Of a DNA stretch of 64,000 nt, positions 11,749 to 56,553 are shown piece by piece (positions within the stretch are counted from its first letter, which is position 1; every line of letters begins with the position of its first letter). The position numbers and the translations under genes are program-made. Origin of the DNA: a virus. The notes under the pieces were generated by a model. It was not told the DNA's origin and made no database searches. It saw only the letters and a program-made list of their open reading frames with translations. Location: the IMG/VR virus record IMGVR_UViG_3300027844_001828, positions 62,001 through 126,000 of that record; one strand, written 5' to 3'.

Positions 11749-12993
11749 ATGAGTAAAGAAATCATAGATGTAGTGGGCGAAGCGATTGCTCATTATGCAA
11801 AACTATCAAAGGCTGGGAAGAATCCGCTGGATGTCAATCGCGGAACCCCGGAACAGGCTAAAATGAGAAAGGGCTTGGCGGTCACAGATTTGTCAACACT
11901 TTCTGTTAATGTATCAAAGGCCGCAGAATTCACAGAAGTTGTTCCAACAGGGATAGAAGAGTTTGATATCGCATCAGGAATTGGTGGTGTGCCAAGAAAC
12001 GGGAAAACCATTGAGTTATTTGGTGTTGAAAGTGGTGGTAAGAGTTGGTTGGCTTACAAGATAATTGCAGCGTTCCAAAGAGAAGGTTTAATAGCGGGGC
12101 TTCTTGATTTAGAAGATTCGGCGTCGTTGCCTTGGCTCACTGGATTGGACGTTAATCCAGAACATTTGATCTATGAAAATGGATTCAGATCTGGAGAAAC
12201 TTGGATGCAATTGACGAATGACTTGTGCGCAGGCGGTTACTTAGACTTGTTAGTCGTAGACTCAACAGCCGCAGTTGTTCCAGAAGCGCAAATTAACGCT
12301 CCAGCGGGAAAGCAGAACGTCGCTCTTCTTGCCAGATTGTTATCTCAAGAAATCCCTAAAGTATGTGGTGCGGCGAAGTCCAAAGAAGGAAAGGGTGGAA
12401 AGGCAACTACTGTTATTTGGATAAATCAAGTTCGTGAAAAGCCAGGTGTCACATGGGGAAATCCCGAAGTCACCCCCGGTGGTAAGGCATTGAAGTTCTA
12501 TTCTGATATGAGAATAGACGTAAGAAAGAAGTCTATTACCAAGCAAAAAGTTGGTGAGGATGAAATTCCTATTGCGCAGATATCCAGTGGTCAATTTGTC
12601 AAGAATAAGTTGGCTCCGCCATATAGAAAGTTCTTGGTAAACATTAACTTTGATGCGACGTTGTCGAATCCACTTGTTATGCTTGTGCATCATTCGTATG
12701 AAAAGAAGTTGTTCGCAAAGTATAAAGGCGAATATAGATTCGTCCCAGAGGATAAGAAAGACAAGAATGTCCCAACAGGTGAGGACAATCTTGTCGATCT
12801 TGCTAATTGGGCATACGAGAATAGCAAAACATTTGAGCTTGTATCAAGAGTTACACAAGCGTATGAAGACGCTGTTGAAGATATCCCCACATTCTTGGGA
12901 GATATTGACGAAGGCGTATTACCACCACCGAGAGTCGGTGAAAACAATGCAGTTACTGAGGAAGAGGTAGCTGCTGAGGAAGAGGCGGCTTAA
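11749..12993 (+). CDS. recA: RecA recombinase
   Basis: This is an ATP-dependent strand-exchange protein of 414 residues, longer than the usual 350. Walker A is GVESGGKSW (residues 92-100). Walker B lies in LDLLVVDSTAAVVP, and WINQVREKPGVTWGNPEVTPGGKALKF covers the L2 region and the sequence after it. N-terminal polymerisation sequence is divergent from bacterial RecA, as in phage RecA/UvsX proteins. The C-terminal 40 residues are acidic (EEEVAAEEEAA), the usual autoinhibitory tail. A GGAG site precedes the ATG. The stop is followed after 2 nt by the primase start, so the two are co-transcribed. Confidence 0.95.
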   Translation: MSKEIIDVVGEAIAHYAKLSKAGKNPLDVNRGTPEQAKMRKGLAVTDLSTLSVNVSKAAEFTEVVPTGIEEFDIASGIGGVPRNGKTIELFGVESGGKSWLAYKIIAAFQREGLIAGLLDLEDSASLPWLTGLDVNPEHLIYENGFRSGETWMQLTNDLCAGGYLDLLVVDSTAAVVPEAQINAPAGKQNVALLARLLSQEIPKVCGAAKSKEGKGGKATTVIWINQVREKPGVTWGNPEVTPGGKALKFYSDMRIDVRKKSITKQKVGEDEIPIAQISSGQFVKNKLAPPYRKFLVNINFDATLSNPLVMLVHHSYEKKLFAKYKGEYRFVPEDKKDKNVPTGEDNLVDLANWAYENSKTFELVSRVTQAYEDAVEDIPTFLGDIDEGVLPPPRVGENNAVTEEEVAAEEEAA

Positions 12994-16337: not shown

Positions 16338-19300
16338 ATGAGCCACAAAATTGCCATCATAGCAGATTTACATCTAAATAATAATCAATACGGCAAGACA
16401 GTAGAAGGCAGTGGACTTTTACTAAAAACAGATGACGCTCTAAAAGCATTCAAGTTCACCATTGATGAAAGTATCAAAAGGAAGGTTGATCATTACGTAA
16501 TAGCCGGGGATTTATTTGAGCACCCGTCCCCAACAAGCAAGATCAGAAGGCTTGTCAACGCCGAATTGCAGCGTTTGATCGATAATAAGATACTTATTAC
16601 GGCTCTAATTGGTAATCATGACCTTTGCAACGAACACCACGCCCTTGAGCCCTTAGTGGGTTGGAACAAGGGGTTAAGGGTTGCTTCAGACTTCGGTGTT
16701 GAAAGAAAAGAGAAGGCCACATACGTCTATGTTCCCCACACCTTTGATATCGAAAAAAGAAAGAAGTCATTCAAAGACTACATTGCCAAATTAAAAGACA
16801 CGGTTCACCCAGAGCCCGGACATAGAATTGTCATGTTTGGCCATTTTCCCGTATTCGGAGCGTTACAAAACGATAGCGTTACAAATAAGAACGATAGGAA
16901 TGTGGCTATTGAAGAACTTATTGATCTAGATTATGATGCTATTTTCCTCGGCGATTTCCACAAGAGACAAAAACTTTCTGACTCTGGACAAATTTATTAT
17001 GTCGGAAGTCCAGAGAAAGTTGATTTCTCAGAGAGAAACCAAGACAAGGGATTTTGTATTTATGATGTAGTTACAAATGATATTGAATGGATCAATTATG
17101 AAGGTAGCCGACCGTTAATAGAAATAACTGGTGACAACGTTGATGAAATTGATCTTCAAATTGAAAACTTAGACCTCAATAACGCCATTGTGAAAATAAA
17201 AGTAACGGGATCTGACGAAGAGTTTGCTTATGTACAACAAAGATTTAATGAGTTATCTGGAAAGGTTTCAGAATCTGGCAGTGTATTCTTCGCCGGATTA
17301 GAAAGAGTACAGAATGAAGACGACGATGAAGACGACGAAGACAGTGAGTCTATCAAGGAGTTACATGCCGGATCAATAAACGTCTTCGACATTGTTCAGA
17401 AGAATATTGAGAGCGAAGATATTTCAGATGATGAAAAAGATAATCGCATATCAATCTTGAGACAGGTTGAAAAAGAAGTCGCTTCAGAATTGCAGTTGTC
17501 AACAGACGTTTCATTCAAAGACAAGCGAACGATAAAGTTTAAGAGTGTTAAGCTCCATAACTTTTGTAGGTTCGGAGAGAAGGACAACGTCGTCGATTTT
17601 GACAAGCTCTTTGAGGACGCAAACGGATCAAGCATGGCATCTATATCTGGCATCGTTGACGGGAACCCCTCTGAGTCAAATGGTTCTGGAAAGTCTACGA
17701 TATTAGAATCTATAGCATATGTTCTTTATGAAAGAATGCCGAGATTGTCGTTATTCAAAGACCCATCAAAGTCAAGAGATAAATCGAAGAAGACGACCTT
17801 TGAAATAATAAGGACAGACGATGCTGGAAAGTTTGCGTGTAAGGAAGCCTATGCCGAGTTGACTATGGAGGTCTCTGGAAGCGAGTGGGTGATTCGTCGT
17901 GGAAGAAAGGTTCAAAAGAATGACAAGCATACAGCAATTTTGGAACTCTCGAAAGATGGTGAGCCATACAATAGTAGAAAATCAAAAGACCCCAATGATG
18001 TGATCAAAGATTTGATCGGAGTTGATTATGAACCATTTTGCAACAGCGTGTTCTTTGCCCAAAAGGATACGAGTAAACTTTTCACAGCAACGCCTGGGGT
18101 AAGGATTGATACAATCTTGAATATTCTTGGCGTTCTTTCAGACATTACATCAGCAATAGAAAAGATTCGGGAGAGAAAGAAGACAGTCGCCGCCGAAATC
18201 TCGACTCTTTCAGGACGTGTTGATACCCTTAAAGAAATGTCAAGTCATGACGAAGATACGTTGGCGAGTAAAATATCCGAATTAGTCACAGAGACTGAAG
18301 AGTTTGACGAGAAGATAAAGAAGAACGATAAAAATACTGTAAAGATAAGGGGCTTGAAAGATAAGAAAGTCGCTCGCCGGGAAGAGATGAATTTATCATT
18401 GAAAGGATTAGATGATAAGATAGACTCGGTTGACGAGAAGGGTTCGGCAGAGTCTTTGAGCTTGAAATATGAGATATCCTCATGTGAAGATCAAGTGAAA
18501 GCTATTAATGAACGTGATAAAAGATTTTCTGATGATAAGGAAATACTCAGAGTTGAATACGAAAATTACTTGAAGATCAGAGATGGGATAAAAGAGCAGG
18601 ATCTTGAAGTTTCTCTTGAAAAAATTTCAGCTGCAAAATTAGAGAAGGTCGGATTATCCCAAAGCAAGTTTAAGTGTCAGGAAGAAATAGTTACCTTCGC
18701 CGGTAAAAGGGCACAGTATGAATCTGACGGATTACATGCAATGCAATCTCTTGAAAAATATAAGAGCGTGTTGAACACTGTTAAAGGGCAGGATGTCAAG
18801 TGCCCGCATTGTGGCTCAGTTCATGATAGGGATCACTACGATAAAGAGATAGATAATTTGAGAGAGAAGATCCGAGTTTCAGAAAGAGAAGCTGCGGAAG
18901 TGAAGGGTAAAAATAAGGAAAGCGAAAAAAGACTCGTTGGATTTGTAAAGACAGAAGAAGGATTGGATTTTGTTATTGACAGAGCGCCCCAAGTCGTTTC
19001 TCAATTGCAAAAGAGAAAAGATGCCGTCATTGGATTGGATGCTGTTGGTAAAAAGATCGTAGAATTGAAAAAAAGAATGGCGGAGCCCGTCTCTACTGAC
19101 ACCTTTGAGTCATTAGGTGAGCGCATGAAAGAGGCCAAGTCAAAACTTGAGGGGATACAGTTAAAGTACCACAAGATGAAAGAAGGATGGTTAAAAGAAA
19201 CCACCGTCTTGAATAGTGACATAAGAGCAATCAAGCATGACATTGTTATGATAGATGACAATGTGGTAATAAGTGAACAATTGAGTAAGACTCTCATGGG

Positions 19301-19916
19301 AAGACTCAGTGAGGCGGGGATAGAAAAAGCCAGATGGCAAGATTCATTGTCTACTCTCAGGAAATTAAAGAAGGATCTCAGTAAAGCCACAGATTCTCTT
19401 GAGGGGCATAGAAACGAACAGATAGGTATCCTTTATCTTGAGAGTTCATTTGGTAGTGATGGTGTCAAGATGGATATTGTTGATTACTATTTGCCCATCT
19501 TCAATAACCATATGGAAAATTTCATTACGATATTGACAGAGGGTAGAATAAATGTAAGTATAGATAGGGAGACTATGGAGCCTGTTATATTCGGTGCCAG
19601 TTCCTCATCGTATGAAATGCTTAGTGGCGGAGAGCAAGATGTAATCCGGTTAGCCGGTAATCTCGCTCTTGGTATGGTGTCTCTTGGTAGTAGCAGATCT
19701 CTTCCTGAGACTCTCTTCCTCGACGAGATATTTGGCGCTCTTGCGCCAGCGATGAAAGAGAGGGTGTTCAAGTTGATTGACCATCTCCGTTCATATTTTA
19801 ACAGGATTCTTGTAATCACTCATGACCTCGAATTGCAAACTAAATTCAGTCGCGGCATATATGTTCATAAAAATAACGGTATAAGCGCTGTATCATTATT
19901 AAATGACAATCATTAA
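16338..19916 (+). CDS. SbcD-SbcC (Mre11-Rad50) single-chain fusion nuclease
   Basis: One uninterrupted 1192-residue frame encodes both halves of the Mre11-Rad50/SbcCD DNA-end-processing complex. Residues 1-300 are the metallophosphoesterase nuclease: IADLHL, AGDLFEH, IGNHD, GHFPVFG and GDFHKRQ. An acidic linker (EDDDEDDEDSE) and about 70 more residues lead to the Rad50-type ATPase. This has Walker A ESNGSGKST (446-454), Q-loop FFAQKD, a coiled coil with zinc hook CPHC (822-825), a returning coil, signature LSGGEQ (1095-1100), Walker B LFLDE (about 1126-1130) and VITHD. The D-loop Asp is replaced (GALA). The two subunits are normally separate proteins (T4 gp47/gp46, E. coli SbcD/SbcC). Confidence 0.95.
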   Translation: MSHKIAIIADLHLNNNQYGKTVEGSGLLLKTDDALKAFKFTIDESIKRKVDHYVIAGDLFEHPSPTSKIRRLVNAELQRLIDNKILITALIGNHDLCNEHHALEPLVGWNKGLRVASDFGVERKEKATYVYVPHTFDIEKRKKSFKDYIAKLKDTVHPEPGHRIVMFGHFPVFGALQNDSVTNKNDRNVAIEELIDLDYDAIFLGDFHKRQKLSDSGQIYYVGSPEKVDFSERNQDKGFCIYDVVTNDIEWINYEGSRPLIEITGDNVDEIDLQIENLDLNNAIVKIKVTGSDEEFAYVQQRFNELSGKVSESGSVFFAGLERVQNEDDDEDDEDSESIKELHAGSINVFDIVQKNIESEDISDDEKDNRISILRQVEKEVASELQLSTDVSFKDKRTIKFKSVKLHNFCRFGEKDNVVDFDKLFEDANGSSMASISGIVDGNPSESNGSGKSTILESIAYVLYERMPRLSLFKDPSKSRDKSKKTTFEIIRTDDAGKFACKEAYAELTMEVSGSEWVIRRGRKVQKNDKHTAILELSKDGEPYNSRKSKDPNDVIKDLIGVDYEPFCNSVFFAQKDTSKLFTATPGVRIDTILNILGVLSDITSAIEKIRERKKTVAAEISTLSGRVDTLKEMSSHDEDTLASKISELVTETEEFDEKIKKNDKNTVKIRGLKDKKVARREEMNLSLKGLDDKIDSVDEKGSAESLSLKYEISSCEDQVKAINERDKRFSDDKEILRVEYENYLKIRDGIKEQDLEVSLEKISAAKLEKVGLSQSKFKCQEEIVTFAGKRAQYESDGLHAMQSLEKYKSVLNTVKGQDVKCPHCGSVHDRDHYDKEIDNLREKIRVSEREAAEVKGKNKESEKRLVGFVKTEEGLDFVIDRAPQVVSQLQKRKDAVIGLDAVGKKIVELKKRMAEPVSTDTFESLGERMKEAKSKLEGIQLKYHKMKEGWLKETTVLNSDIRAIKHDIVMIDDNVVISEQLSKTLMGRLSEAGIEKARWQDSLSTLRKLKKDLSKATDSLEGHRNEQIGILYLESSFGSDGVKMDIVDYYLPIFNNHMENFITILTEGRINVSIDRETMEPVIFGASSSSYEMLSGGEQDVIRLAGNLALGMVSLGSSRSLPETLFLDEIFGALAPAMKERVFKLIDHLRSYFNRILVITHDLELQTKFSRGIYVHKNNGISAVSLLNDNH

Positions 19917-24744: not shown

Positions 24745-25857
24745 ATGGATTACTACGAAATATTAGGAGCCAAGAGGGGAGATACCGCCGCTACGATAAA
24801 GAAAGCGTATCGAAAATTGGCTCATAAGTATCATCCAGATAAAAACCCTGACAATAAAGAGGCGGAAGATAAATTCAAAGATGTCGCCGAGGCATATGAA
24901 GTTTTGTCAGATGAAAAAAAGAAGCCGATTTATGACAAGTTTGGAAAAGAGGGGTTGAAGCGTGGCGGAGGCGGCGGAGGCGGCGGAGGCGGCGGAGGCC
25001 AGGGTCAGGGCTGGGGTGGTTTTGCAGGCTTTAACTTCGGAATGGGACAGGACGATGGGATTGATATCATTCAGGTTCAGATGGGTATTGATGTTTACGC
25101 TGTAGCTTATGGCTCAGATAGGCAATTTAAGATCAATATTAACGACAAGTGCAAAACTTGTGATGGGTCAAGAAAAAAGCCGGGTGGGAAAGAAGAAATT
25201 TGCTCATCGTGCAAGGGCCAGAAATTTATAATAAGAAAGCAGGGCGGAATGATGTTTCAGTTACCCTGCCAAGCCTGTCAAGGCCAAGGTGGCACTTTTG
25301 ATAAATGCGAAAGCTGTCATGGTCATGGGGTCCAGGCAAGGACCATGACTATGAAGGTTAGTATTCCAAAGGGAGCAGGACATGGGATGAAGATAAGACT
25401 CAAGGGAGTCGGTAACTACTCTGTCGGAGCGAATGCTAAGGGACATATTCATTTTATCTTAGTCCTTGCAGAACATGAGTTATTTGCCATCAATGGATCG
25501 GATGTTCATGCTGGGTTGCCAATAACCTTCAAACAAGCCATTCTTGGGGGTGATATAAAGGTTCCGACCTTATATGGCGATGTGGACGTTACCTTACCTA
25601 AAGAGTCGAAGAATGGTGATGTTTTAACGGTTTCTGGATCGGGTGTCCCAAACAAGCCAAATAGTACCGTAAAGGGCGATCAATATGTCCATTTGATAGT
25701 CGATATGCCAAAAGGAGTTTCAGATGAAATTAGAGAAGTTATAAACGGCATTGACGACAGCGGATGTACATACGAAACCATTAATGAATACAATGGCGTA
25801 TGCGAAAATATAAAAAAAGAGATAGGCAGGGCTAATAATGAAGATAAAACTGGCTGA
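24745..25857 (+). CDS. dnaJ: DnaJ co-chaperone
   Basis: This is a full type I J-protein of 370 residues. The J domain is [13 protein letters not shown]...HPDKNP. A Gly-rich linker includes 12 consecutive Gly encoded by a repeated GGCGGA unit (24964-25000). Four zinc-binding CxxCxG repeats follow (CKTCDG, CSSCKG, CQACQG, CESCHG), then the C-terminal substrate-binding domains. AAGGAG precedes the ATG at 24745; the longer in-frame ORF starts inside the promoter leader. No DnaK or GrpE is visible, so it probably recruits host DnaK. The end overlaps the giant gene start by 20 nt. Confidence 0.96.
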
Positions 25858-28800
25858 AACTCCACGTGAAGAATGGATATCCATAGAGTTCAACTTCCTA
25901 TACAGTGCATGGCATGCCCATTTCTCTATGGACGACCTGTCTCAAACCCAACAAGCATCAATTGATCAGGGCAATGAAGAGGTGGAGGCGGTAATGAACT
26001 CCACTTTCAGTGCCGATCAGTACGTCTCTGGGTATAGAAATGCTTTGAATGGCGATCCTGGTAAAATTCTTTATGATCCAGAAATAACTTTGAGTCAAGA
26101 ATTATCTGTGATGATTCAAACCATTGATACTAATGTTGGAAGAATTTTATCTGGTGAAATCGATTCGCTTAATATAGATACACCAGATATCTTTAACAAA
26201 TTTGTAGATTTCCATGTTTTATTTGGCGGGTTGGAGAATTCATATAGTAATTTCGACTTTTCACCAGGCTTGAGTAATTCGCTATGGCTTTTCAGGAGTC
26301 CATACAATGCCAGGTTTCCCAGATCGATAATCCTTGATGATGTACAAGAGGAAATTACCAGACGTGAGGAAAAAATAAAATCCTACCTCATGACACGGTA
26401 TGATATTGGTGATGAGATCAATGAGACATCAGATAGTTGGAGAATAATCGATGGAGAACTGCATTATGATAATGCGGTTGCTGACGACTTCGAGGAAGGG
26501 GTAGTTGATAAACTTATGAATGAAGACGCACATGCATCGGCGATCCTTTCATCCCTGAACTTATTTAACTCTACCGAACCAATTGACGGCGGGTGGGAGA
26601 GGGTTGAAACAAGAGTTATATTTGCCGAAGAAGGGGCTGTAGAGGGGTTGATTAGAAGGGTCACTGACGCTGACGACATTAGGGCTGTTCAAGATATTTT
26701 AGAAATCGGTCAGGGAGCGGTATTGACAGATTTGAGATTGAATACCGGGAGCACTTTAGACAATGCAACCTGGGTTATCGTAGGGAACCAAATATATTTC
26801 TTATTGTCTGAGTCTGGACTTTCTCAAGAAGATATAGTAGATCAGGTCACAGAAATTACTGGCCATGATGAACGCGCTTATGATAGATTGTCTACTGGAG
26901 GGTTTTTGAGAGATGATGTAGACAGTGGGGGAGGTCCTGATTTTGACCATCAGGTTAATTTAAGCGTCTTATTTAATGGTCTTGATACTGATCTTATTGC
27001 AGATGAATTCAGAAGTCAAGTTTTGATTATAATTCAGAGAGAGGAAGAAGCAATAACCGAATTTGTCTCGTCCAACTTATCCCAGAACTTTGACCATCAC
27101 GATGGTGTTTTTAGATTCACATTAAACCCAATGAATGATGACACAAGAGCAGACGGGGCTAAAAGGGCGTTGAGGGTCATGAATGCTCATGCCGAATCTG
27201 AAATTATAGCATTGTTGAGTGGGATATCTGTAAGCCCTCATTCAGCCTTTAATTGGAAACATGTGGAAACTGAAATTATATTAAGGCCAATTAACGACGT
27301 TTTGGACATGCTTTACAATCACGATGAGGGGAGAAGCATTGTCACGGCAGAGAGAACGTTGTGTCGGGATATGCTGCGAGAGCGAAATAGCCGTGCCATT
27401 GATTATTTAAGTCAGGCTTGTGGCAATGATATTGACAATCCACAATGGATAGTTCATGAGGAATCATTGTATATCCCAGACGGAAGCCGTTTGCGAAGCG
27501 TGGACGATTTCGGAGATATATTGGTAAGAATAGCCAATGCTGACGGTGAAGCCAAGCGCTCTTTTAGGGGTATGGGAGTTCGTTTCGCTGACGATGTGGA
27601 TGAAGATCGAGGGATGGAGACGCATGAGTACCCTGGCCTTTTTTCTAATCCAATGAGAATGAATATTGTAAACAGGAATGGTAGTTCACTGTCGGGTGAT
27701 TCGAGGGACGAGGTAGAAAGAATTAGGAATTTGTACAGCCCCCGTGCCGCAGACATACTTCAATTGTTATCTGGATCTGGATCTGGAACGGTCTATTCGA
27801 TTGCGAGTGCGAGTTCTAGGGTCTCTTTTGATAAAGATATGTTGACGGATTTGCAAATTAAAACCGTTCATGAATTGTTAAAGACATTAGATGATTCCGT
27901 TAGAGCAGATATTATATCAAATCTTGATGTTATAGTAAGACGTAGCGCAGTGTCGCATGATTTAGATTTTGATTTTCTATTTAGAGACGCCAACTTCTTA
28001 ATTGACATGTCTAATACGCATTCAGATATATATAGAGAGAGAAATATTGTTACGATGGAGGACGGAAGTGGAATCCCAAACTCGGCAGATAATATTCACG
28101 AAATACAGTGGCGTTTAAGAAGTGTAAATGATCGGGCATCTTCCTGGCTAGATAGCCACTTCCCGGAAAATTCATTCATATTTGAAATGGGTGAAGGGTA
28201 TGGGACTCTTTATGTTGATTTGAACATTCTCCAACCAAACCTCCTTATGTCACTATATGATGGGTTGACGATGGCTGACAACGATCTTAGATCACGATTA
28301 GGGCAAGCTCCTGGTTTTGGCGTATTTCCCACTTCAAGATTTACAGACAGGGAAGACAGGGATGAGGTGACAACTGAAGAGGAAGTTTCAGATATTGACA
28401 GAGAGGTTTGGTTGGAGTTCGACTTCTTATTTAGACCCTTTGAACACTTTCAGCAGTTTGTAGAGTTGACAGACAATGGACTTCCAGTGTCAACAGATGA
28501 TGATATGATGAACAGGTTGGAAGACATTGTTAGACCAATCATGGACGCTGCTAATGATTATGTCGCAGTAAATGTCGATGATGAAGCATACAGGTATGAT
28601 GCTGGCGAACTTGTTGTATTAGAAGAGAGAGATCATCAACTAGGATTATCTCCGACTGATCTTGATATGTTGAGAACCAATCTTGAGAATTTAGACCGAT
28701 CAGTTGTTCAGGCAATTGAGTCCGATCCAATTTTTCAATTGCATGATGTGGAGCCGACCACTTTCGATTCCGAACAAGAATTTAGTTTTGATTTTTTATT

Positions 28801-30628
28801 TAATACGCCACAAATATATACGAGTAATGGTTTAGTTAAATTATTTAATGGAAATCCAGTTAGAACAACTGTTGGGAACTTTGGATTATTGACAAATATT
28901 GTCAGGAGAAAAGTAATTTTGGCAAGAACATATCTTGACAGAGTTATTGGCTTTGATGCATATAGAATTCATTTTATGCCCGTCCTCGCGCCGCGATCCG
29001 GATTCTTGTTTATTGATTCTGATCAGGTTTCTGAAGAAGAGATAGAAGAGGTAGAAGATGCGCTTAGACAGTTGGATAAAGACGCTGGGGAAGAGATAAA
29101 TAGACATTCAAGATTTCGCGTAGAATCATTTGAAAAAGAGGAAATAAAACTCCAGGCTTTATTCCAAGATCCGTCAGGACTGTTCAACAATATCGGTTAT
29201 GATGATCAAGGATCGATAACGACGTTACGACCAGGCGGGCCATGGGCGTCCCCGAGTTCAGTGTTTCGGGAATTGAGTAGATACAACTCACTCGCCAGAG
29301 ATTTCCTGGAAAATGAAATAAAAGATAAATGGAAGCTTGAGGATACCGAGTTTTCTGCCGGATTGTATTTCAAAGAAAACATTGATCCGGCTGACAGAGA
29401 AAGAGTTGTGAAAGCTTTGAATAAAATGGATATTGAAGCTATAAGTTTTCTTAATTCTGATGACTCATACAATATTACAGATGAAATGAAAGAAAAAGTG
29501 GAGTCCGTCTCAGGAGAGTGGGAAGAGCTAATTACAAAGGTGTTGTTCAAGACGAGAGAATATTTGGACAGGTCTCTTAATTATGAAAATGATGCGGAAA
29601 AATCGATTTCAATTTCCGAGCAGGATATGGATGATATTGTAAAAATATTGCAGGATCATTATGAGGATTTAGTTATTCCAAAGTGGAGACACAGACTATC
29701 TGATGGTAATACAACCTTTGAATCCCCGCATTTTAAGATAGACCTTGGCTCAGATCAGAGTTTTTATTTGAGATCTGGTAATGATGACGAAAGGGCAAGG
29801 ATTATCGATCTGGGAAAACTGGCAATGGTAGAAATATATGGGATGAAGAGGGTTTTATTTACCGATACCATTTCAGAGCAAAATAATTGGAGTGATGAGT
29901 TCGGAGAATCTATTGAAAAGCTATCTGCTCTTGATGACTTCAGTTGGATTGGAGAATTTTTAAGCGATGAAGATAGAGAAAGATTGTCTGAGTTGATGTT
30001 TCGAAGAAGAGATTATTTTATAGCTGGTGCTCATGATGAAAAAATAGAAATGATCAGAGATAAGATTAGTAAAATTGGCGGACCAGTAGGGTATTCAACG
30101 ACATATTCTAGACTTTCTGATAAAATAGAATCCAACAGGAAAATTTATAAAGAATTCAAATCAGTTGCGGACAAAAATGATCTTTCAGTTCCAGAATTTC
30201 GATCCAAAGCAATATATGAGAATACAATATCTATGAATAATAAGAACGCTATCTTAACCAATAAGGTGTATGAAGAAGCCGCATATAATTCTGGGCCATA
30301 TAAAAATGACTATGATGGAACAGCAGAGAGTTTTGTTCTGTATCTTGTGTTTGACATATTAATAAGTATTAAGGATAGATATGAAGATGAAGAGTTTTCA
30401 GAAATCGTTGATCTGGTAAAATTCAACGAAGATATTTTTGATCAATTTGGCGATCCATTTGGTCCTATCAAGAGCGGTCTTGTAAAGGGTTTCATTCCAA
30501 ATACAAAGAAATTTATAGAGAGATGTCCAACTATTGAATCCTCCTTTGATACAACAGTCTATAGGGACATAAGAATTAGTATGGCGAAGATTATTAGAAA
30601 TGTCATAAAAAACAAGGGTTCGGAATAG
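25838..30628 (+). CDS. giant repeat protein A, unknown function
   Basis: This 1596-residue protein has no recognised enzyme motif. It contains about ten divergent repeats of very roughly 100-180 residues. Each has a strand ending in FLF-like sequence ([32 protein letters not shown]), then helices, and often a short W-x-I-x-x-x-x-LYY-type hairpin ([36 protein letters not shown]). It is acidic throughout. There is no signal peptide or membrane segment. The last 150 residues match those of the next protein ([30 protein letters not shown]). It starts inside dnaJ and ends one base into the next start. A structural or packaged virion protein is possible, but unproven. Confidence 0.9.
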
Positions 30629-33600
30629 TGAGAATAATCAAAACAGCAGACTGGGAAGGCGCGACAGAGACAGCCATGTTCCCAGTATTATTCAGGGGTC
30701 AAGTGGGGCTCTCGACAGATAGAGCGAGGGTTTTAGAACAAGCCCAAACACTTGCCAGGAGTATTTTGCACACTGTTGTTCCAGATGGAGACTCGGATGA
30801 AGAGCACTACATCATTGAGGACACAGTTTTGAGATATAAGGCTGGTGGTGTTATTACTGCTGGGGTGTTGCAAAGATTGCGCCTCATGGAGTCTGAAATC
30901 TCGAATCATATCGTTCAAGAGGATGAGAATCAATTAGAATGGGTCGAACTTCCATTTAGATTTCTATATAATGGGGAATTGCAAGATATATATGTTAATA
31001 ATTCGATAAGAGACAGCCCGTCTCATATAACAAGCATATCTCAAGCTGGAGAATCGAGGGTTTTTCCATACCTTAATGACAATGCCACAACCATCGCGGA
31101 TTTCAGATTTGTTAACATCGTGAATCGTGGGGAAAGACCCCAGGTTAGGGTGAGAGGATCTTTGGACTCTGATCATCATATTAATAACTTGATGGCAATT
31201 GAGAATCAATGCATATTGAATTTCGCATCTTATGATATTAATAGTAATGGCGGAACCATCCCTTATGATGGCACTTGGAGTAGAGTTGATACCGTGGTTC
31301 TTTTCAAGAGTTGGTCGGAGGTTGCTGGAATTGTATCTATCCTCGAGCAACGGGCTGGCCACCTTGGCGAACGATCACGACGTGAACGTCAGAATATTAT
31401 TCAAATTATCCAAGGGTATGAACGAAGTGTGTTAATGAGCCTGCATGAAGATTGTCCATTGGGGGATATTGAAACTGGTCCAGATTGGTTGGTCCATGAA
31501 CGGGCGTTACATTACAAATTGGATGGGTGCTTCCATGAATCTCAGGGTGACAGAAGCGTCTGGGATTTACTAAGTTCCAGGGACGAATGGGCCGTTGAGG
31601 CACTTGTCGCAAGGGGATTTGATGTTAACACGGAAAACCCAGAAGATGAATTTGATGAGTCGAGCATTGAATGGCGACGATTTGAATTTGATTTGCTTTA
31701 TGATGGTGATCTTTTCCAGCAAATTAATAATGATGAAATCGAAGGGGATTCTTCTTACTCTCGTATAAACAGAGATGCTATAGATGGAGTAATGACCGAT
31801 GCTCAATTGGAAGTAGATCGATACTTAAGAAGTACTAATTCTGTAGAGGGGAGAGATTTTGTATATCGTGATTTTCCCGGAGATGCACATAGAAATTATC
31901 CATCTTATGCTGTCGGATCTGAATTGGATAATCGGACTGATCGAAAAAATATTGCAGATATCGAACGTTCAGCTTTAATGAAGGTCTGCCACTATTCTAA
32001 CAGTCTGAATAGACGACATCCAGAAATGTCACCGGTTTCTGCGGCTGGATATGTTTTGTTTAAGGCGAGAAGCACTCTTGATACATTTTTCCTGGGTGGG
32101 GTGTCTGACGATGAATTAGTAAAGATAAAGAATTCAGGAGAAGAAAACGTATTAGACTATTTGACGGAAAACCATCCAATCACAAATGTATTTAACCCCC
32201 CGTGGCTCGTATACGACAGGTATTTATTCATTGATGAAAATATTATTCCGATAGATTATTTTGAAGAGTTCCTTTTAGATAATGATGCAGACACTATACA
32301 ATATTTATCGGATGAAGGCTCTTCATTTCAAAGAAATCCCGATGGGATAAGAGTCCCAGAAGGATATATTAGATTCCCTGGATTGAAGTTTTTGTTCAAT
32401 TCTCTTTCTGAGTCTGGAGTTATGGTGAGAGATGCGAACCCGCCAACAAGAATTCCAATTGGTGGTGAAGTTGCAGAGATTATAGAGTTAAGAACGGTTC
32501 AACAGCAAGAGTTGGTAACATGGATGGATGCTGTTGCAAACTCAGAAATTGCATATAGTTTCACCAATAGCGCGGACGCTGTGAAATTCAACAATAGACT
32601 TTATGTGTTGGAAAATGGGGCTTTAAATAATGACGAGGTATTAAAACGCACAATATTAAGCTGGGATCGCACCGCAATACAATCTGTGGAACATGCGTCT
32701 GAAACAATGCCGTATGATTTCATATTCCCCGTCAATACTGAAGATCATACTGTCCCAGAACCGCAATATCCAGAAGATGAGCGGGCCGAAGCGAATGAAA
32801 ACTTGATAAACATGCTTTCTGGATACGATTTGGCTAATAGACCATTAACTTTTGATATTTCAAACACGGGCATCTTCTACGGGACATGGACAAGATTTGA
32901 CGGAACAGAATTATTGTTTAAGAGCGTGGATTATCTATATGACAATTGTAGGATAAATGGCATTCCTCTAAATCAAGAGACGTTAACACTGATTTCTAGG
33001 CAATTGCAGGATGTTGAAGATCAGTATGTAAGTAGTGGAAATGTTATTTTTGTCCCTCAGGAAGTGGCTCCAGAATTACTTTATACAAAAAACACCACTG
33101 TGTCGTCTGAAATATTTAGAAGCGATAATATTTTCAGAAATAATTTAGCTGATGATTTCCCCGGATTTACATTTGAAGATGGGGATGCGGACCCCAGAAC
33201 AAGAGTGAGAAACGGAGCCGATTTCCATCTTTTAGATTTGGATCTTTTGTTTAAGCCAAGATCTATGAGGATTCAGAATTTCAGTTTGAATGGAGGTCTT
33301 GTTCCAAGGGATATCATGGAAGATATAACAGAGTGGTGCTCAGGGGCAGAGGACTTATTTATATCCGAAGTTAATGCAGAATACTTTATTTTTGATGGTA
33401 GAAATGGTAAGATATTTGCCAGAGAAGATGCTAATCAATTAGAGACGAGATTATTGAGGGCGGAAGAGGGCGGAAGAAGCACTCTTTCGGAAAGATATCA
33501 GGGGCTTTTATTTACAGGTGGGCACAATGGAGCGCAAGGGCCTTCGGAGACCCCTGAAGGCAGAGACTTCGAATGGCTTGAAGCCCCATTGACTTTTATC

Positions 33601-35112
33601 TTCAATCCAGTTAATATCAGATGGAAGGTTAGATATATATTTCAACTTGCTCCATTCAATGATCAAGAATTGGATAAGGAACTTGCCGAATCCGTGGTTA
33701 AAGACTATGAGAGTGATCTAAAGAGATATTTGACAAGTTTTTTTCCAGATGATGGGGAGTGGATGGAGAAAGATGGTAAGTTGTATTACGCTGCAAATGG
33801 ACAGATTATTTCTAATCCATCGATCATGACAAAGATAATGGAGTATAACCATGCCGCTATCCGTCAGTTTACCAACTCAGGAGCATTCTCTGGTCAATCA
33901 TTGTTATATGAGGGAAACTTAGAAGCTGCATATGACAAACAATTTGACAACCAAGAAGACTTTATTTACATTGGTAATTTTTCAGATCTTAAAAACAATG
34001 ACGAGGTGATTCTTGCCAAAATGTATGTTGCCAAGTTTATTGAAGCGGTAACCAGTAGAAGGGTTAAATACGGAATAGATTTTGCCTTGTGGCAAGAGGG
34101 GAATGATAAGACATCGAGACTTTATTATAACAATAAAGACAGAAGTGGTGATGATATTAGTCAAACCATTGAGAACATGTATAGTGAGTATGAAGACAAG
34201 ACTCACGCCGTCATTAGTGCTTTGAGAGCCCATCCAGGGATGCGAGAGAGTTTACTTCGCGGAGAAGAGTACGACCTTATGGAACAAGAGATGGATAGAG
34301 GCCGAATTAGTTTGGCGGAAGAACTTGTTAGCAGTCAGATTAGCGAAAAAGAGACTTGGGCAAGAGAGTTAGTGAGCGAAGATGACTATCAATATATTGC
34401 AAAGGAACTTAGAGAGTGGGATTTGGTTGCAGAAGGCACCGATGTTCCTACGGATAATATTGCTGGTATGGGGGCGGATATAAAAAGACATTTATTTAAG
34501 AGGGTCATAAATAAATACTCTCTTGTTTCAGGGTATGATTTAGGATATTCTGAGGGCGTATTCAGGAATGACAATGACAATCATTACAAGGCGATCTCTG
34601 ATTTAATGGGTAAATTATTGTCTAATAGATTCACTCATAGGAAGTTTGACAGGTTGGCAGAAAGTAGAGGTTTGGAGGTCCCAAAATTTAGAGATTCTGA
34701 AAACATATATGAAAGCGCAATCGCAATGAATGAGAAAGACGCTTTGCCAATAAACAAGTTAATCGTAGAGGCAGGGTATAATATTGATGTCGGCAGGGGC
34801 GTTAATGACCAGGTCATAAAAGGCAGAGTTTCACATTTAATTAAGTACCTTCTTTATGATATTCTTGAGAGATCCCGATCTTCAATATTGCGGAGGTCCG
34901 AGGAGACTAATTATAAAAAAGTGATAAAAACAGTTTCGACCAGACTTATAAGCCAAGAGGTTATAGATAAATTAATTTCAACTAATGTCCATGATCCTAA
35001 AAAGTTTGTGGAATCTTTCCCAACAATAGAATCCACTTATGAGTCACTTGCGTATAAAAATCTTCGAATAGCGATTGCTCAAGAAGTGATGAAAATTGTT
35101 GGAAACAAATAA
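30628..35112 (+). CDS. giant repeat protein B, paralogue of A
   Basis: A GTG start shares one base with the TAG of giant A, a coupled arrangement. The 1494-residue product repeats the same motifs: FRFLYNGE, VVLFKSWS, FDLLYDGD, LKFLFNSL, ELLFKSVD, LDLLFKPR, TFIFNPVN, with hairpins such as WLVHERALHYK and WMEKDGKLYYA. Its C-terminal VPKFRDSENIYESAIAMNEKDA and FVESFPTIESTYES align with protein A, so the pair arose by tandem duplication and diverged. No known domain recognised. Together the two genes fill 9.3 kb without a frame break. Confidence 0.9.
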   Translation: MRIIKTADWEGATETAMFPVLFRGQVGLSTDRARVLEQAQTLARSILHTVVPDGDSDEEHYIIEDTVLRYKAGGVITAGVLQRLRLMESEISNHIVQEDENQLEWVELPFRFLYNGELQDIYVNNSIRDSPSHITSISQAGESRVFPYLNDNATTIADFRFVNIVNRGERPQVRVRGSLDSDHHINNLMAIENQCILNFASYDINSNGGTIPYDGTWSRVDTVVLFKSWSEVAGIVSILEQRAGHLGERSRRERQNIIQIIQGYERSVLMSLHEDCPLGDIETGPDWLVHERALHYKLDGCFHESQGDRSVWDLLSSRDEWAVEALVARGFDVNTENPEDEFDESSIEWRRFEFDLLYDGDLFQQINNDEIEGDSSYSRINRDAIDGVMTDAQLEVDRYLRSTNSVEGRDFVYRDFPGDAHRNYPSYAVGSELDNRTDRKNIADIERSALMKVCHYSNSLNRRHPEMSPVSAAGYVLFKARSTLDTFFLGGVSDDELVKIKNSGEENVLDYLTENHPITNVFNPPWLVYDRYLFIDENIIPIDYFEEFLLDNDADTIQYLSDEGSSFQRNPDGIRVPEGYIRFPGLKFLFNSLSESGVMVRDANPPTRIPIGGEVAEIIELRTVQQQELVTWMDAVANSEIAYSFTNSADAVKFNNRLYVLENGALNNDEVLKRTILSWDRTAIQSVEHASETMPYDFIFPVNTEDHTVPEPQYPEDERAEANENLINMLSGYDLANRPLTFDISNTGIFYGTWTRFDGTELLFKSVDYLYDNCRINGIPLNQETLTLISRQLQDVEDQYVSSGNVIFVPQEVAPELLYTKNTTVSSEIFRSDNIFRNNLADDFPGFTFEDGDADPRTRVRNGADFHLLDLDLLFKPRSMRIQNFSLNGGLVPRDIMEDITEWCSGAEDLFISEVNAEYFIFDGRNGKIFAREDANQLETRLLRAEEGGRSTLSERYQGLLFTGGHNGAQGPSETPEGRDFEWLEAPLTFIFNPVNIRWKVRYIFQLAPFNDQELDKELAESVVKDYESDLKRYLTSFFPDDGEWMEKDGKLYYAANGQIISNPSIMTKIMEYNHAAIRQFTNSGAFSGQSLLYEGNLEAAYDKQFDNQEDFIYIGNFSDLKNNDEVILAKMYVAKFIEAVTSRRVKYGIDFALWQEGNDKTSRLYYNNKDRSGDDISQTIENMYSEYEDKTHAVISALRAHPGMRESLLRGEEYDLMEQEMDRGRISLAEELVSSQISEKETWARELVSEDDYQYIAKELREWDLVAEGTDVPTDNIAGMGADIKRHLFKRVINKYSLVSGYDLGYSEGVFRNDNDNHYKAISDLMGKLLSNRFTHRKFDRLAESRGLEVPKFRDSENIYESAIAMNEKDALPINKLIVEAGYNIDVGRGVNDQVIKGRVSHLIKYLLYDILERSRSSILRRSEETNYKKVIKTVSTRLISQEVIDKLISTNVHDPKKFVESFPTIESTYESLAYKNLRIAIAQEVMKIVGNK

Positions 35113-49340: not shown

Positions 49341-49419
49341 AAATTGGTTGTATTATGCATAGTATGTCCACGTTTCGTGGACTTACTGTGTATTATCGGA
49401 GTGTAGGAAAGTCTGGTCA
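49341..49419 (+). repeat. 79-bp direct repeat, copy 1
   Basis: This copy is identical to 50011-50089. It contains an 11-bp imperfect hairpin (AGTATGTCCACG-ttt-CGTGGACTTACT core) and the first 23 nt of a tRNA-Pro-like gene. In copy 1 the tRNA continues; in copy 2 it is cut. Confidence 0.9.
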
Positions 49420-49474
49420 TCGCGCTTGTTCCGGAAACAAGAGAACGAAAGTTCGAATCTTTCCACCCAGACCA
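49397..49474 (+). tRNA. tRNA-Pro(CGG)-like, divergent
   Basis: The sequence follows bacterial tRNA-Pro closely: CGGAGTGTAG start, CTGGT in the D-loop, T-arm GAAAG-TTCGAAT-CTTTC, and an encoded CCA after A73 and G72. The anticodon stem CTTGT/ACAAG closes a loop TCCGGAA, giving anticodon CGG. Oddities are C at position 33 instead of U and two mismatches in the acceptor stem, so activity is uncertain. Confidence 0.65.
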
Positions 49475-49498
49475 GTTTTAATAATAGGAGATTATAAA

Positions 49499-49690
49499 AT
49501 GAATAAAATAGATGATATAGCGAATGATATTATTGCAGGAAGTGAATTGCCAAATTTAATTGAGTTAGTTCCTGAGAATTTTGTTCTTCTTGGAGAGATT
49601 AAAATGGCAATCATGAAAGCTGTTAAGATTGGGTTGAATATGGAAATAGAATTGCAAAAAGAATTTATTCTTAGTGGCAATAAGACTTAA
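49499..49690 (+). CDS. small hypothetical protein
   Basis: TAGGAG lies 9 nt before the ATG. The 63-residue product is acidic at first, then helical (LGEIKMAIMKAVKIGLNMEIELQ). It directly follows the tRNA-Pro-like gene. No family recognised. The sequence ATAAGACTTAAGGAGA at its end recurs after the next gene. Confidence 0.6.
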   Translation: MNKIDDIANDIIAGSELPNLIELVPENFVLLGEIKMAIMKAVKIGLNMEIELQKEFILSGNKT

Positions 49691-49702
49691 GGAGAAATAA
49701 TA

Positions 49703-49792
49703 ATGTTAGAAATATCTATTGGTTTGGTAGTTGTAATAGTCGCATCATGTTCTTGGCTCGTATGGTTTATGGCAAAGAACGTATGGGGATAA
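49703..49792 (+). CDS. 29-residue membrane peptide
   Basis: AAGGAGA precedes an ATG 8 nt away. The product, starting MLEISIGLVVVIVASCSWLV, is a single hydrophobic helix with a short basic end. The conserved ATAAGACTTAAGGAGA stop/ribosome-site string before and after it supports translation. Confidence 0.55.
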   Translation: MLEISIGLVVVIVASCSWLVWFMAKNVWG

Positions 49793-49808
49793 GACTTAAG
49801 GAGATACA

Positions 49809-50012
49809 ATGAAAGGGTTGCATTATGATGATGTTGGAAATCGTAAGTTAATTGAAACTTTGGTTACTGTTTTACTTCAAGATGGATTGAAGGGAGAAGA
49901 TATGATTGGGGTTTTAACTAAGAATGGAGCGTTTAAAGTATTGAATGGAGATCAATTATGTGCGGTTGCAGAAGCAATGGAAGAAGTTTATAAGGATATG
50001 TTGTTGAAATAA
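49809..50012 (+). CDS. small hypothetical protein
   Basis: AAGGAG lies before the ATG. The 67-residue helical product (LIETLVTVLLQDGLKGEDMIGVLT) ends exactly where the second copy of the 79-bp repeat begins. No family recognised. Confidence 0.6.
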   Translation: MKGLHYDDVGNRKLIETLVTVLLQDGLKGEDMIGVLTKNGAFKVLNGDQLCAVAEAMEEVYKDMLLK

Positions 50013-50089
50013 ATTGGTTGTATTATGCATAGTATGTCCACGTTTCGTGGACTTACTGTGTATTATCGGAGTGTAGGAAAGTCTGGTCA
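50011..50089 (+). repeat. 79-bp direct repeat, copy 2
   Basis: Identical to 49341-49419. It ends inside the tRNA-Pro D-arm; the following bases diverge into the region before tRNA-Gln, leaving a 5' fragment of tRNA-Pro. Confidence 0.9.
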
Positions 50090-50108
50090 GCGATACCAAT
50101 TTATAAGA

Positions 50109-50184
50109 TGCCTCGTAGCATAACTGGTAATGCAACAGCCTCTGAAGCTGTTTTATCTTGGTTCAAATCCAAGCGGGGTAGCCA
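50109..50184 (+). tRNA. tRNA-Gln(CTG)
   Basis: The acceptor stem TGCCTCG/CGGGGTA (two wobbles), anticodon arm ACAGC-CTCTGAA-GCTGT with anticodon CTG, T-loop TTCAAAT and encoded CCA are all present. It reads CAG. Confidence 0.9.
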
Positions 50185-50190
50185 TTTTAT

Positions 50191-50267
50191 AGGGATGAGG
50201 GCTTGTTGGTAAGCCGCATGCTCTGGAAGCATGAGTACTCTGGGTTCGACTCCCAGTATCCTGACCA
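50191..50267 (+). tRNA. tRNA-Pro(TGG)-like, divergent
   Basis: The D-stem GGCT/AGCC, anticodon arm CATGC-TCTGGAA-GCATG, T-arm CTGGG-TTCGACT-CCCAG, G72, A73 and encoded CCA are present. The anticodon is TGG. As in the other Pro-like tRNA, position 33 is C, and the acceptor stem is imperfect at its end (A1 opposite G72). Confidence 0.65.
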
Positions 50268-50286
50268 TTTTCAGATGTTATTAGAC

Positions 50287-50314
50287 TTGACATTCACCTG
50301 TTTTCATGTATATT
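50287..50314 (+). promoter_or_regulatory. promoter before tRNA-Ser/Leu
   Basis: TTGACA (50287-50292), 16 nt, TATATT (50309-50314). Confidence 0.7.
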
Positions 50315-50400
50315 AATTCCATTAGAGCTTGAAGACTGGCAGAAAACTGAAATTATGAATATCTTTACCGAAAGAATGCAAGCAGAGATAGGGTAACATC

Positions 50401-50490
50401 GGAGGGGTGGCTGAGTGGCTAAAGGCACCTGTCTTGAATACAGGAGGGCGTGAAAGCGTCCCGTGGGTTCGAATCCCACTCCCTCTGCCA
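50401..50490 (+). tRNA. tRNA-Ser(TGA)
   Basis: This is a class II tRNA with a long variable arm. Anticodon arm CCTGT-CTTGAAT-ACAGG, anticodon TGA. T-arm GTGGG-TTCGAAT-CCCAC, acceptor GGAGGGG/TCCCTCT and encoded GCCA. Confidence 0.95.
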
Positions 50491-50493
50491 AAT

Positions 50494-50581
50494 GGCCTCG
50501 TGGCGTAACTGGCAGACGCGGCAGGATTTAAAATCCTGTGTCCGAAAGGGTGTTAGGGTTCGACTCCCTACGAGGTCACCA
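50494..50581 (+). tRNA. tRNA-Leu(TAA)
   Basis: This class II tRNA starts 3 nt after tRNA-Ser. Acceptor GGCCTCG/CGAGGTC, anticodon arm CAGGA-TTTAAAA-TCCTG, anticodon TAA, long variable arm, encoded CCA. It reads TTA. Confidence 0.95.
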
Positions 50582-50631
50582 ATTAAAAGGTTATATGATT
50601 TGTTATTCAGAAATATATAGTGAGGTGAATA

Positions 50632-51042
50632 ATGGATTGGTATAAAAAATCAAATGTAGATCTTGAGCAGAGAATAAAAATTCTTGTTCCACAAATGGTC
50701 ACTAAGTCACAAAGTGTTTACGACGCCTGGGATCAAGATGAAGATGGAATTGATGTATGGCTTGGGTGTGGTGGGATATGTCAAGACATTGCTGATGGAA
50801 TATGTGATGTTTTGACAATGAATGGAATTGATTGCACTTCTGTTTCGGCCCAAGTTGGAGAGCAGCATGTATGGGCTATAGCTTATGAAGGAAGCGAGGC
50901 TTTTGATTTAGATATTCATCCTGGAAATTACGAAACTGGTGGTGGGTATAATTGGAAAAAGATACCAGGGGTTGTATTTACCACTGATATGGTGTCAATT
51001 GAACGAAACAGTTTTTTTGATCCTGAGGATGAAGATTATTAG
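50632..51042 (+). CDS. predicted Cys-His-Asp protein, transglutaminase/papain-like
   Basis: The 136-residue product has WLGCGGICQDIADGICDVL (Cys), EQHVWAIAYEG (His) about 30 residues on, and AFDLDIHPGNYETGGG (Asp). This order and spacing are typical of transglutaminase-like or papain-like catalytic triads. The N-terminus MDWYKKSN resembles that of the protein at 52788 (MNWYKSY). GTGAGG precedes the ATG. A peptidase or amidase role is inferred. Confidence 0.7.
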   Translation: MDWYKKSNVDLEQRIKILVPQMVTKSQSVYDAWDQDEDGIDVWLGCGGICQDIADGICDVLTMNGIDCTSVSAQVGEQHVWAIAYEGSEAFDLDIHPGNYETGGGYNWKKIPGVVFTTDMVSIERNSFFDPEDEDY

Positions 51043-51092
51043 GAAGAGTTGGCCGAAAGATCGCAGGGTAGCGGCTACTGTCTCTTCTGCCA
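51042..51092 (+). other. minimal tRNA-like element with CCA end
   Basis: GGAAGAG and CTCTTCT form a 7-bp acceptor-like stem followed by GCCA, but only 33 nt lie between, with a small CAG-GG-TAG hairpin and no T-arm. It is probably a tRNA-Ser remnant with an internal deletion. It begins on the last base of the preceding stop codon. Confidence 0.5.
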
Positions 51093-51104
51093 TTTTATAG
51101 TTTT

Positions 51105-51180
51105 ATGTGGAAAGCATCCGGCTGGATGAGGAGGTGCCCAATTGATCAGGGCCGTGGGTTCGAATCCCACTCTATAGCAA
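51105..51180 (+). pseudogene. degenerate tRNA, possibly Ile(GAT)
   Basis: A good T-arm (GTGGG-TTCGAAT-CCCAC), a D-loop-like GGCTGGAT and a weak acceptor stem are visible. The anticodon stem GCCC/GGGC closes a 9-nt loop containing TTGATCA instead of 7 nt. CCA is not encoded. It is probably not functional. Confidence 0.4.
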
Positions 51181-51199
51181 CTTTGTATTTGTTTTGGGC

Positions 51200-51227
51200 T
51201 TGAGATATAGGCTTGTTGAGATATTGT
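51200..51227 (+). promoter_or_regulatory. promoter before tRNA-Glu
   Basis: TTGAGA (51200-51205), 16 nt, TATTGT (51222-51227), ending 20 nt before tRNA-Glu. Confidence 0.5.
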
Positions 51228-51247
51228 AATGGTTAAAGAATATAAAT

Positions 51248-51324
51248 GACCCGTTGGACGAATTGGTTAAGTCGTCAGGTTTTCAACCTGAAGATTGCGG
51301 GTTCAAATCCCGCACGGGCCACCA
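51248..51324 (+). tRNA. tRNA-Glu(TTC)
   Basis: Anticodon arm TCAGG-TTTTCAA-CCTGA gives anticodon TTC. T-arm GCGGG-TTCAAAT-CCCGC, acceptor GACCCGT/ACGGGCC with one mismatch at position 2, and encoded CCA. Confidence 0.9.
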
Positions 51325-51330
51325 GTATTA

Positions 51331-51478
51331 TCCATGCCGACGAAAGTCTCACTAAGTGGAGCCTGTGTTTTGGACATGGGAGAATTTTAATTCTTGTTGA
51401 AAATTGAAATATGAGTAACGTTCGATGATGTCATTCGTCAGCACTCAATTCCGTTTAGCGTCGGTCATGGATTTTTAT
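51331..51478 (+). ncRNA. candidate structured RNA after tRNA-Glu
   Basis: TCCATGCCGACG (51331-51342) pairs with CGTCGGTCATGGA (51459-51471) through 12 bp and one bulge. Inside are AGAATT-tt-AATTCT and a longer TGAGT...ACTCA arm. A T-rich run follows the closing stem, as in a terminator. No coding frame of note lies within. I do not recognise the class; it may be processed with the tRNA. Confidence 0.55.
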
Positions 51479-51523
51479 TTTTTTAAAGATAGTTTGTATA
51501 CTAATAACAAGGGTCTAAGAAGT

Positions 51524-51546
51524 GTTTTCATGAATAATATGAAAAC
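51524..51546 (+). promoter_or_regulatory. small inverted repeat before 51.6-kb gene
   Basis: GTTTTCAT-gaataat-ATGAAAAC, a perfect 8-bp repeat just before the ribosome site of the next gene; a hairpin or operator. Confidence 0.4.
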
Positions 51547-51563
51547 CAAATGGAGATCAATTT

Positions 51564-51773
51564 ATGAGAGTTATAGAAAATAATAAAAAGACCGTGAAGG
51601 TCGCCGATGATAAGACAAAGGCGATGGACATTATAAAAAGTCTTCTTGAAAGATATAGGAATAGTGAGTTGCCTGTTATCATTAACAACATATGCCAAGC
51701 GATCATTGATGAGAATCAAAGACAACCTGGACCTGGTGATATTTTTGAAGAGAAAGTAAAATCAACTGACTAA
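51564..51773 (+). CDS. small hypothetical protein
   Basis: TGGAGAT lies before the ATG. The 69-residue product is charged and helical (MDIIKSLLERYRNSELPVIINNICQAII). No family recognised. It ends 6 nt before a tRNA-Leu remnant. Confidence 0.6.
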   Translation: MRVIENNKKTVKVADDKTKAMDIIKSLLERYRNSELPVIINNICQAIIDENQRQPGPGDIFEEKVKSTD

Positions 51774-51778
51774 ATTAA

Positions 51779-51830
51779 GGCCTTGTGGTGGAATTTTGGC
51801 AGACACGAAGTTTTAAAATGAAGGTGTCTT
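51779..51830 (+). pseudogene. 5' fragment of a tRNA-Leu
   Basis: GGCCTTGTGGTGG, TTGGCAGACACG and TTTTAAAATGAAGGTGTC follow the first half of tRNA-Leu(TAA) at 50494, but the anticodon stem no longer pairs and the T-arm and CCA end are missing. It lies 40 nt before the HNH gene. Confidence 0.65.
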
Positions 51831-51870
51831 TACCATTTCTGAAGAATACTTTATACAAAGGAGTATTTAT

Positions 51871-52407
51871 ATGAAAATAAAGAGCAAAGAACATCTTGAG
51901 AATGTGGTTAAAGAATCTGCAAGTGTTTCAGAGGTTCAGCGTAAATTGGGATATAAACCATCAGGTGGTATACATAAATTTCTTAAAGGTAAGTTTAAAG
52001 AATTTGAAATAGACACTTCTCATTTCACAGGTCAAGGGTGGTCGCTTGGGAAATCAAGGGAGACGGATGAAATTGTTGATATAGTTTCTCGAAAAATAGA
52101 ATCTCCATGGGAACATGTTTTTAGGAAAGGTAACCATAAAACACAAAATGAGACCTTGATTAGACGTTTGATAAGAAGCGGCAAAAGAGAATATAAATGT
52201 GAAGATTGTGGGGTTAAAAAGTGGGGCGACAAACCTCTACGATTGCAACTTGATCATATAAATGGAGACAATTCTGATTGTCAAGAAATAAACTTAAAGA
52301 TTATTTGCCCTAATTGTCATTCTCAAACTGAAACATTTTCAAGAGGAATGAGGGAAAGTAGAAGTTATTATAGAAACAAATGGTGGAAACAATTATCTAT
52401 GAATTAA
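51871..52407 (+). CDS. HNH homing-type endonuclease
   Basis: The 178-residue protein has an N-terminal helix-turn-helix-like part (ASVSEVQRKLGYKPSGGI). The HNH/zinc domain follows: CEDCGVKKWGDKPLRLQLDHINGDN, then CPNCHSQTETFSRGM. Free-standing phage HNH enzymes are mobile. It sits between a tRNA-Leu 5' fragment and a full tRNA-Leu that starts 1 nt after its stop. AAAGGAG precedes the ATG. Confidence 0.92.
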   Translation: MKIKSKEHLENVVKESASVSEVQRKLGYKPSGGIHKFLKGKFKEFEIDTSHFTGQGWSLGKSRETDEIVDIVSRKIESPWEHVFRKGNHKTQNETLIRRLIRSGKREYKCEDCGVKKWGDKPLRLQLDHINGDNSDCQEINLKIICPNCHSQTETFSRGMRESRSYYRNKWWKQLSMN

Positions 52408-52408
52408 T

Positions 52409-52495: not shown

Positions 52496-52509
52496 AATTT
52501 GGATAAGCA

Positions 52510-52766: not shown

Positions 52767-52787
52767 TCCTTTCATAAGACTGATAAC

Positions 52788-53696: not shown

Positions 53697-53700
53697 AGAC

Positions 53701-54383: not shown

Positions 54384-54385
54384 CG

Positions 54386-56061: not shown

Positions 56062-56066
56062 CGGGG

Positions 56067-56543: not shown

Positions 56544-56553
56544 TACAACTCGT

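Follow-up and report, generated by a model that had tools for sequence, protein, structure and literature searches.

The window analyzed here, a stretch of 64,000 nucleotides, is part of a viral record (G000; 235,624 bp) and contains an uninterrupted reading frame of 1192 codons that encodes the Mre11/SbcD nuclease and the Rad50/SbcC ATPase as one chain (Table 1). Overall, the gene is a deep, divergent, and apparently independent example of a fusion that has been described before, and no new kind of system is revealed by it. The reading that best explains the findings as a whole, and that we consider very likely, is a single-chain SbcCD that probably originated when a stop codon was lost and that would carry out ATP-gated processing of DNA ends, feeding the phage RecA.

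Both halves are recognized by several kinds of comparison. Pfam places Metallophos at residues 4 to 209 (1.6e-9) and SMC_N at residues 447 to 1181, phrog_100 (SbcD-like) matches residues 2 to 395 (5.6e-31), and phrog_77 (SbcC-like) matches the 1192-aa protein (8.2e-65). The NCBIfam models sbcc and sbcd both match it with scores under their curated cutoffs, as expected given that phage proteins are divergent. Relatives by sequence in the PDB are Rad50/SbcC and Mre11/SbcD proteins from archaea, T. maritima, and E. coli, and a fold search with the AlphaFold model matches Mre11, SbcD, and Rad50 chains. The Metallophos, phrog_100, and fold matches identify an SbcD-type calcineurin-like phosphoesterase domain, and the union of the two domains in a single ORF, with Mre11 ahead of Rad50, is the arrangement of the fusions published in 2011 (see below). 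The whole record was searched, and the Rad50 half of the fusion is its only SbcC. Two further metallophosphoesterase ORFs are found elsewhere in the record. A 760-aa ORF with a metallophosphoesterase match (L128, 10-2292, around 34.8 kb of the record) lies outside the window and is separate from SbcD.

Table 1. Features of the fused gene and its likely partner, in window coordinates
Feature	Residues	Position	Strand	Evidence
RecA/UvsX-like recombinase, likely partner		11749..12993	+	Pfam RecA 5.7e-54; phrog_97
Fused SbcD-SbcC (Mre11-Rad50) gene, 1192 aa		16338..19916	+	Single ORF, both family matches, codon usage in frame throughout
Mre11/SbcD nuclease core (ADLH, GDLF, GNHD, GH, GDFH)	1-258	16338..17111	+	Metallophos, alignment, model
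Motif V GDFH, Asp replacing first His	205-208	16950..16961	+	Alignment: His in 114/122 rows
Capping domain	259-325	17112..17312	+	Strand-helix pattern in model
Acidic disordered stretch	326-348	17313..17381	+	pLDDT <50 at 327-348; 11/23 Asp/Glu
Predicted Rad50-binding helix-loop-helix	349-389	17382..17504	+	Model helices 349-359 and 364-389
Linker (~7 residues), partly low confidence	390-396	17505..17525	+	pLDDT <50 at 383-392; no internal start with ribosome site
Rad50 N-terminal ATPase lobe	397-598	17526..18131	+	Pfam SMC_N, motif alignment, model
Walker A SNGSGKST	447-454	17676-17699	+	Alignment with independent phage proteins
Q-loop FFAQKD	572-577	18051-18068	+	Alignment with independent phage proteins
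Coiled coil, first arm	599-817	18132..18788	+	Model helices
Zinc hook CPHC	822-825	18801..18812	+	Sequence, alignment
Coiled coil, second arm	831-1067	18828..19538	+	Model helices
Rad50 C-terminal ATPase lobe	1068-1192	19539..19913	+	Pfam SMC_N, motif alignment
Signature LSGGEQ	1095-1100	19620-19637	+	Alignment with independent phage proteins
Walker B LFLDE	1126-1130	19713-19727	+	Alignment with independent phage proteins
D-loop position, Ala replacing Asp	1136	19743..19745	+	Asp in 101/109 rows

Frame 0 has the top codon-usage score in every 40-codon block, including those of the linker region (281-440), when scored against a training set made up of the other window genes and both ends of the fusion gene, with the linker excluded. 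Residues 285 to 433 contain few in-frame start codons and none with a GGAG-like ribosome site upstream, a site that is present at most neighboring genes of the window. Read in this way, the linker is coding and the Rad50 half lacks a separate start. The single ORF, the family matches, and the codon usage through the linker support a genuine fusion of the two proteins in one frame, as the preliminary description had claimed from the sequence. An error of assembly or sequencing, by which adjacent sbcD and sbcC genes are read as one through a missed stop or an indel, would produce a similar frame, and adjacent in-frame sbcD and sbcC genes separated by one stop are common. Listeria phage LMTA-57 provides an example of a false or very recent fusion caused by a one-base loss. 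Its 1009-aa product (L004, 3908-6937), annotated as a recombination exonuclease, tops the list of a structure search as a fused protein, but we rejected it as a true fusion: compared with LMTA-148, which has a separate SbcD gene, one A has been lost from an A-run at the SbcD stop, and intergenic DNA is translated as the linker. The linker of the window protein differs from that of LMTA-57 in appearance, since it holds a predicted helix-loop-helix. With coding-type codon usage, an ordered helix-loop-helix in the model, and nothing left in the window gene of a start or ribosome site that could serve the Rad50 half, we regard an artifact as extremely unlikely.

The novelty that had been attached to the fusion does not hold. 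Thirteen Mre11/Rad50 fusions, including one in a Bacillus phage, were described by Yoshida, Claverie, and Ogata in 2011 (PMC3175470), and more phage and virus cases were found here. The published set includes Mimivirus R555, Bacillus phage 0305phi8-36, plasmids of Deferribacter and C. kluyveri, and several eukaryotes; the same authors note the abundance of R555 relatives in viral metagenomes and discuss co-expression and the compatibility of the fusion with the MR complex (PMC3175470). Like these proteins, the window protein has an N-terminal Mre11 and a C-terminal Rad50 in one chain, and it shares the motif V Asp with R555 and the capping domain, helix-loop-helix, and short linker with most of them. 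However, it belongs to another lineage and has an acidic spacer ahead of the helix-loop-helix as well as a D-loop Ala, the comparison with R555 being by description rather than by alignment. The window gene extends the published list by one deep, apparently independent case.

The preliminary description had proposed a search for other full-length fusions, many of which would count against it, and such fusions were indeed found, most of them known from sequence alone. Xanthomonas phage XacN1 encodes a fused SbcD-SbcC (BBA65453.1; 1099 aa), as do Microcystis phage Mel-JY01, the 735-kb huge phage LR756501, and four viral contigs (L130 to L133), two of which are complete and two of which are cut by contig ends. 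A search of viral protein structures returned about 18 long targets aligned over >1200 columns; the individual targets, as named in its listing, include proteins of Tenacibaculum phages pT24 and PTm1, Tupanvirus, Catovirus, Harvfovirus, and Pyramimonas orientalis virus. The XacN1 protein resembles the window protein in being fused and in lacking the D-loop Asp, but its motif V is the canonical GHFH and it is nested among split relatives. The R555-like fusions (L130 to L133, Mel-JY01, and LR756508) share with the window protein the fused state and the motif V Asp but keep the D-loop Asp where it could be read, and a joint clade with them is disfavored (see below). In LR756508.1, a 484-kb huge phage, the SbcD part is broken by an insertion: the fused gene (L010, 1869-6094) is interrupted directly after motif V (GDIHKRQ) by ~0.9 kb containing a 305-aa ORF. 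This insert is probably an intron or homing element; an Rfam search found no group I or II intron in it.

Among 112 loci with both halves, a sample biased toward XacN1 relatives and herelleviruses, fusion is the minority state, and a single ORF was found only in the window (with its duplicate record), in XacN1, and in the frameshifted LMTA-57. None of the 98 loci from earlier viral-contig scans was fused. Relatives of XacN1 for which tblastn spans had suggested fusion proved to be split in all 17 cases, and LR756511, which looked like a single locus, has two genes. Single-protein scans of viral_contigs and genome_contigs found no close relatives of the fusion protein, and a single-protein scan of viral_contigs found none of the window RecA.

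Gene order at split loci points to the origin of the fusion. Of 98 same-strand pairs in which the SbcD gene precedes the SbcC gene, 80 have the genes within 150 bp of each other, and 17 of those 80 are in frame; a single TAA separates the genes in 16 of the 17. Loss of a stop codon between adjacent in-frame genes would, judging from these sequences, be an easy route to fusion in phages, and the window fusion probably arose by this route. These loci show how readily phage fusions can arise, the genes being adjacent, often in frame, and one stop apart. A tree was built from 33 proteins, with R555-like fusions but not R555 itself. In it, the window protein forms a long branch whose neighbors are split genes of Pontibacillus and Priestia plasmids (90/83), apart from the R555-like fusions. 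A clade uniting the window protein with XacN1 is rejected (p-AU 6e-34), whereas grouping it with the R555-like fusions (L131 to L133 and LR756508) is disfavored (p-AU 0.015), a result of moderate strength because the branches are long. Thus, the window fusion is independent of the XacN1 fusion and probably also of the R555-like one, which indicates repeated fusion, as already proposed for Mre11/Rad50 in 2011 (PMC3175470).

An AlphaFold monomer model was made from a 25-row alignment (mean pLDDT 70, pTM 0.45); with this pTM, the relative placement of the nuclease and ATPase halves in the model is unreliable. Locally, pLDDT is 73 to 88 across residues 351 to 380, and the first Rad50 strand begins at residue 397. 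According to the preliminary description, an acidic linker takes the place of the interface helices, which the model contradicts. The predicted helices at residues 349 to 389 would correspond to the Mre11 helix-loop-helix that binds the root of the Rad50 coiled coil, and they follow the acidic stretch. The Rad50-binding helices therefore appear to be retained in the model, the acidic stretch preceding them rather than substituting for them. Most of the 2011 fusions likewise retain the capping domain and the helix-loop-helix, and the T. maritima structure leads one to expect a linker some nine to twelve residues long (PMC3175470); the window protein agrees with them in retaining both parts and in having a short linker.

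Within the nuclease half, the full set of phosphoesterase motifs that had been reported is not confirmed, since motif V is the noncanonical GDFH rather than GHxH. The Asp aligns with P. furiosus His206, a position where His predominates (114 of 122 SbcD rows from viruses and plasmids). The eight Asp rows comprise the window and its duplicate record, an unfused plasmid pair (L007/L008), LR756508, and L038/L043/L044, the last three having been retrieved with a pattern that required the motif V Asp. GHxH is accordingly not an absolute mark of the family. Loss of the first His, at a position where so many relatives carry it, could mean that the protein is a tether or ATPase with impaired nuclease function rather than a working nuclease, and Mimivirus R555 was reported to carry the identical change (PMC3175470). 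However, the remaining catalytic residues are intact (D10, H12, D58, N93, H94, H169, and H208), and GDxH is also found in several other intact lineages, which suggests a tolerated variant. Asp is able to ligate metals. We consider an impaired nuclease very unlikely and prefer the reading of an active end-processing enzyme.

The Rad50 half has Walker A, the Q-loop, a CxxC hook (CPHC), the signature LSGGEQ, and Walker B ordered around the coiled coil. All of these motifs had been noticed earlier, and they line up with their counterparts in independent phage proteins, also in an alignment of full-length rows translated across the stops that separate sbcD from sbcC. The D-loop Asp, also correctly noted as missing, is replaced by Ala1136; Asp is found here in 101 of 109 aligned SbcC rows and is thus common but not universal. 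The replacement is the same change as P. furiosus Rad50 D829A, which has a kcat 3.8-fold higher, and ATP induces less dimer formation in D-loop mutants (PMC7049730). Given that both the window protein and XacN1 are fused and lack the Asp, the covalent fusion may hold nuclease and ATPase together so that the dimer-stabilizing D-loop Asp became dispensable; the result would be a deregulated MR enzyme with fast, weakly cooperative hydrolysis of ATP, looser ATP gating, and a less strictly controlled nuclease. However, the Asp is also lost in split proteins (L013, L020, L034/L035, and L074), among them the XacN1 relatives L020 and L074, and it is kept in R555-like fusions such as L133. Thus, D-loop loss does not track fusion, and a deregulated enzyme of this kind is unlikely.

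The activity of the enzyme could be altered or lowered by the motif V Asp and the D-loop Ala. These are single-residue substitutions at sites that are variable in unfused relatives as well, and they need not be consequences of the fusion. Both are of biochemical interest, and neither is explained by the fusion; a single-chain MR with these natural substitutions could serve as a biochemical model of ATP gating. PADLOC matches to the fusion protein (mad3 and LmuB) involve its ATPase half alone, as would be expected of an SMC-like ATPase.

The neighbors of the fusion gene encode a DNA polymerase III alpha, a RecD2-like helicase, a RecA/UvsX-like recombinase (~3.3 kb upstream), and a DnaG/Toprim primase, with RecJ further on. 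SbcC/SbcD is practically universal in jumbo phages (PMC7824862), and in T4, gp46/gp47 generate the recombinogenic 3' ends that serve recombination-dependent replication (reviewed in PMC3175470). T4 gp47/gp46, E. coli SbcD/SbcC, and archaeal Mre11/Rad50 have the same two domains and the function expected here, but as two genes and two chains; the 1:1 subunit ratio of the window protein follows trivially from fusion. By analogy with these systems, an ATP-gated end-processing enzyme feeding RecA is the most likely job of the window protein. Of this explanation, the demonstrated part is one coding frame, the presence and order of the two domains, and the motifs of each. The chain runs from nuclease and capping domain through an acidic flexible spacer, the predicted helix-loop-helix, and a short linker to the ATPase head, which bears the coiled coil and the zinc hook. 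Two chains would dimerize via Mre11 and the ATPase heads, giving the usual two-plus-two assembly in which every helix-loop-helix rests on the root of a coiled coil, probably that of its own chain. ATP would close the heads over the nuclease sites, and DNA ends would stimulate hydrolysis, upon which the nuclease would open and trim or nick the end, leaving the phage RecA with a 3' strand. The enzyme may thus act in double-strand-break repair and recombination-dependent replication in the manner of T4 gp46/gp47.

Most proteins tested from the structural region of the record are without Pfam and PHROG matches, and phrog_2, which we take to be the large terminase family, has no match in the whole 235,624 bp, indicating that the phage is very divergent. 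Adjoining ORFs of 1596 and 1494 aa at positions 25838 to 35112 of the window have no Pfam match. A 441-aa ORF (60122-61447) has a dUTPase domain at residues 55 to 192 followed by a long C-terminal part of unassigned nature. A cluster of eight tRNAs is found at positions 49397 to 57104, of which three are for Leu and two for Pro.
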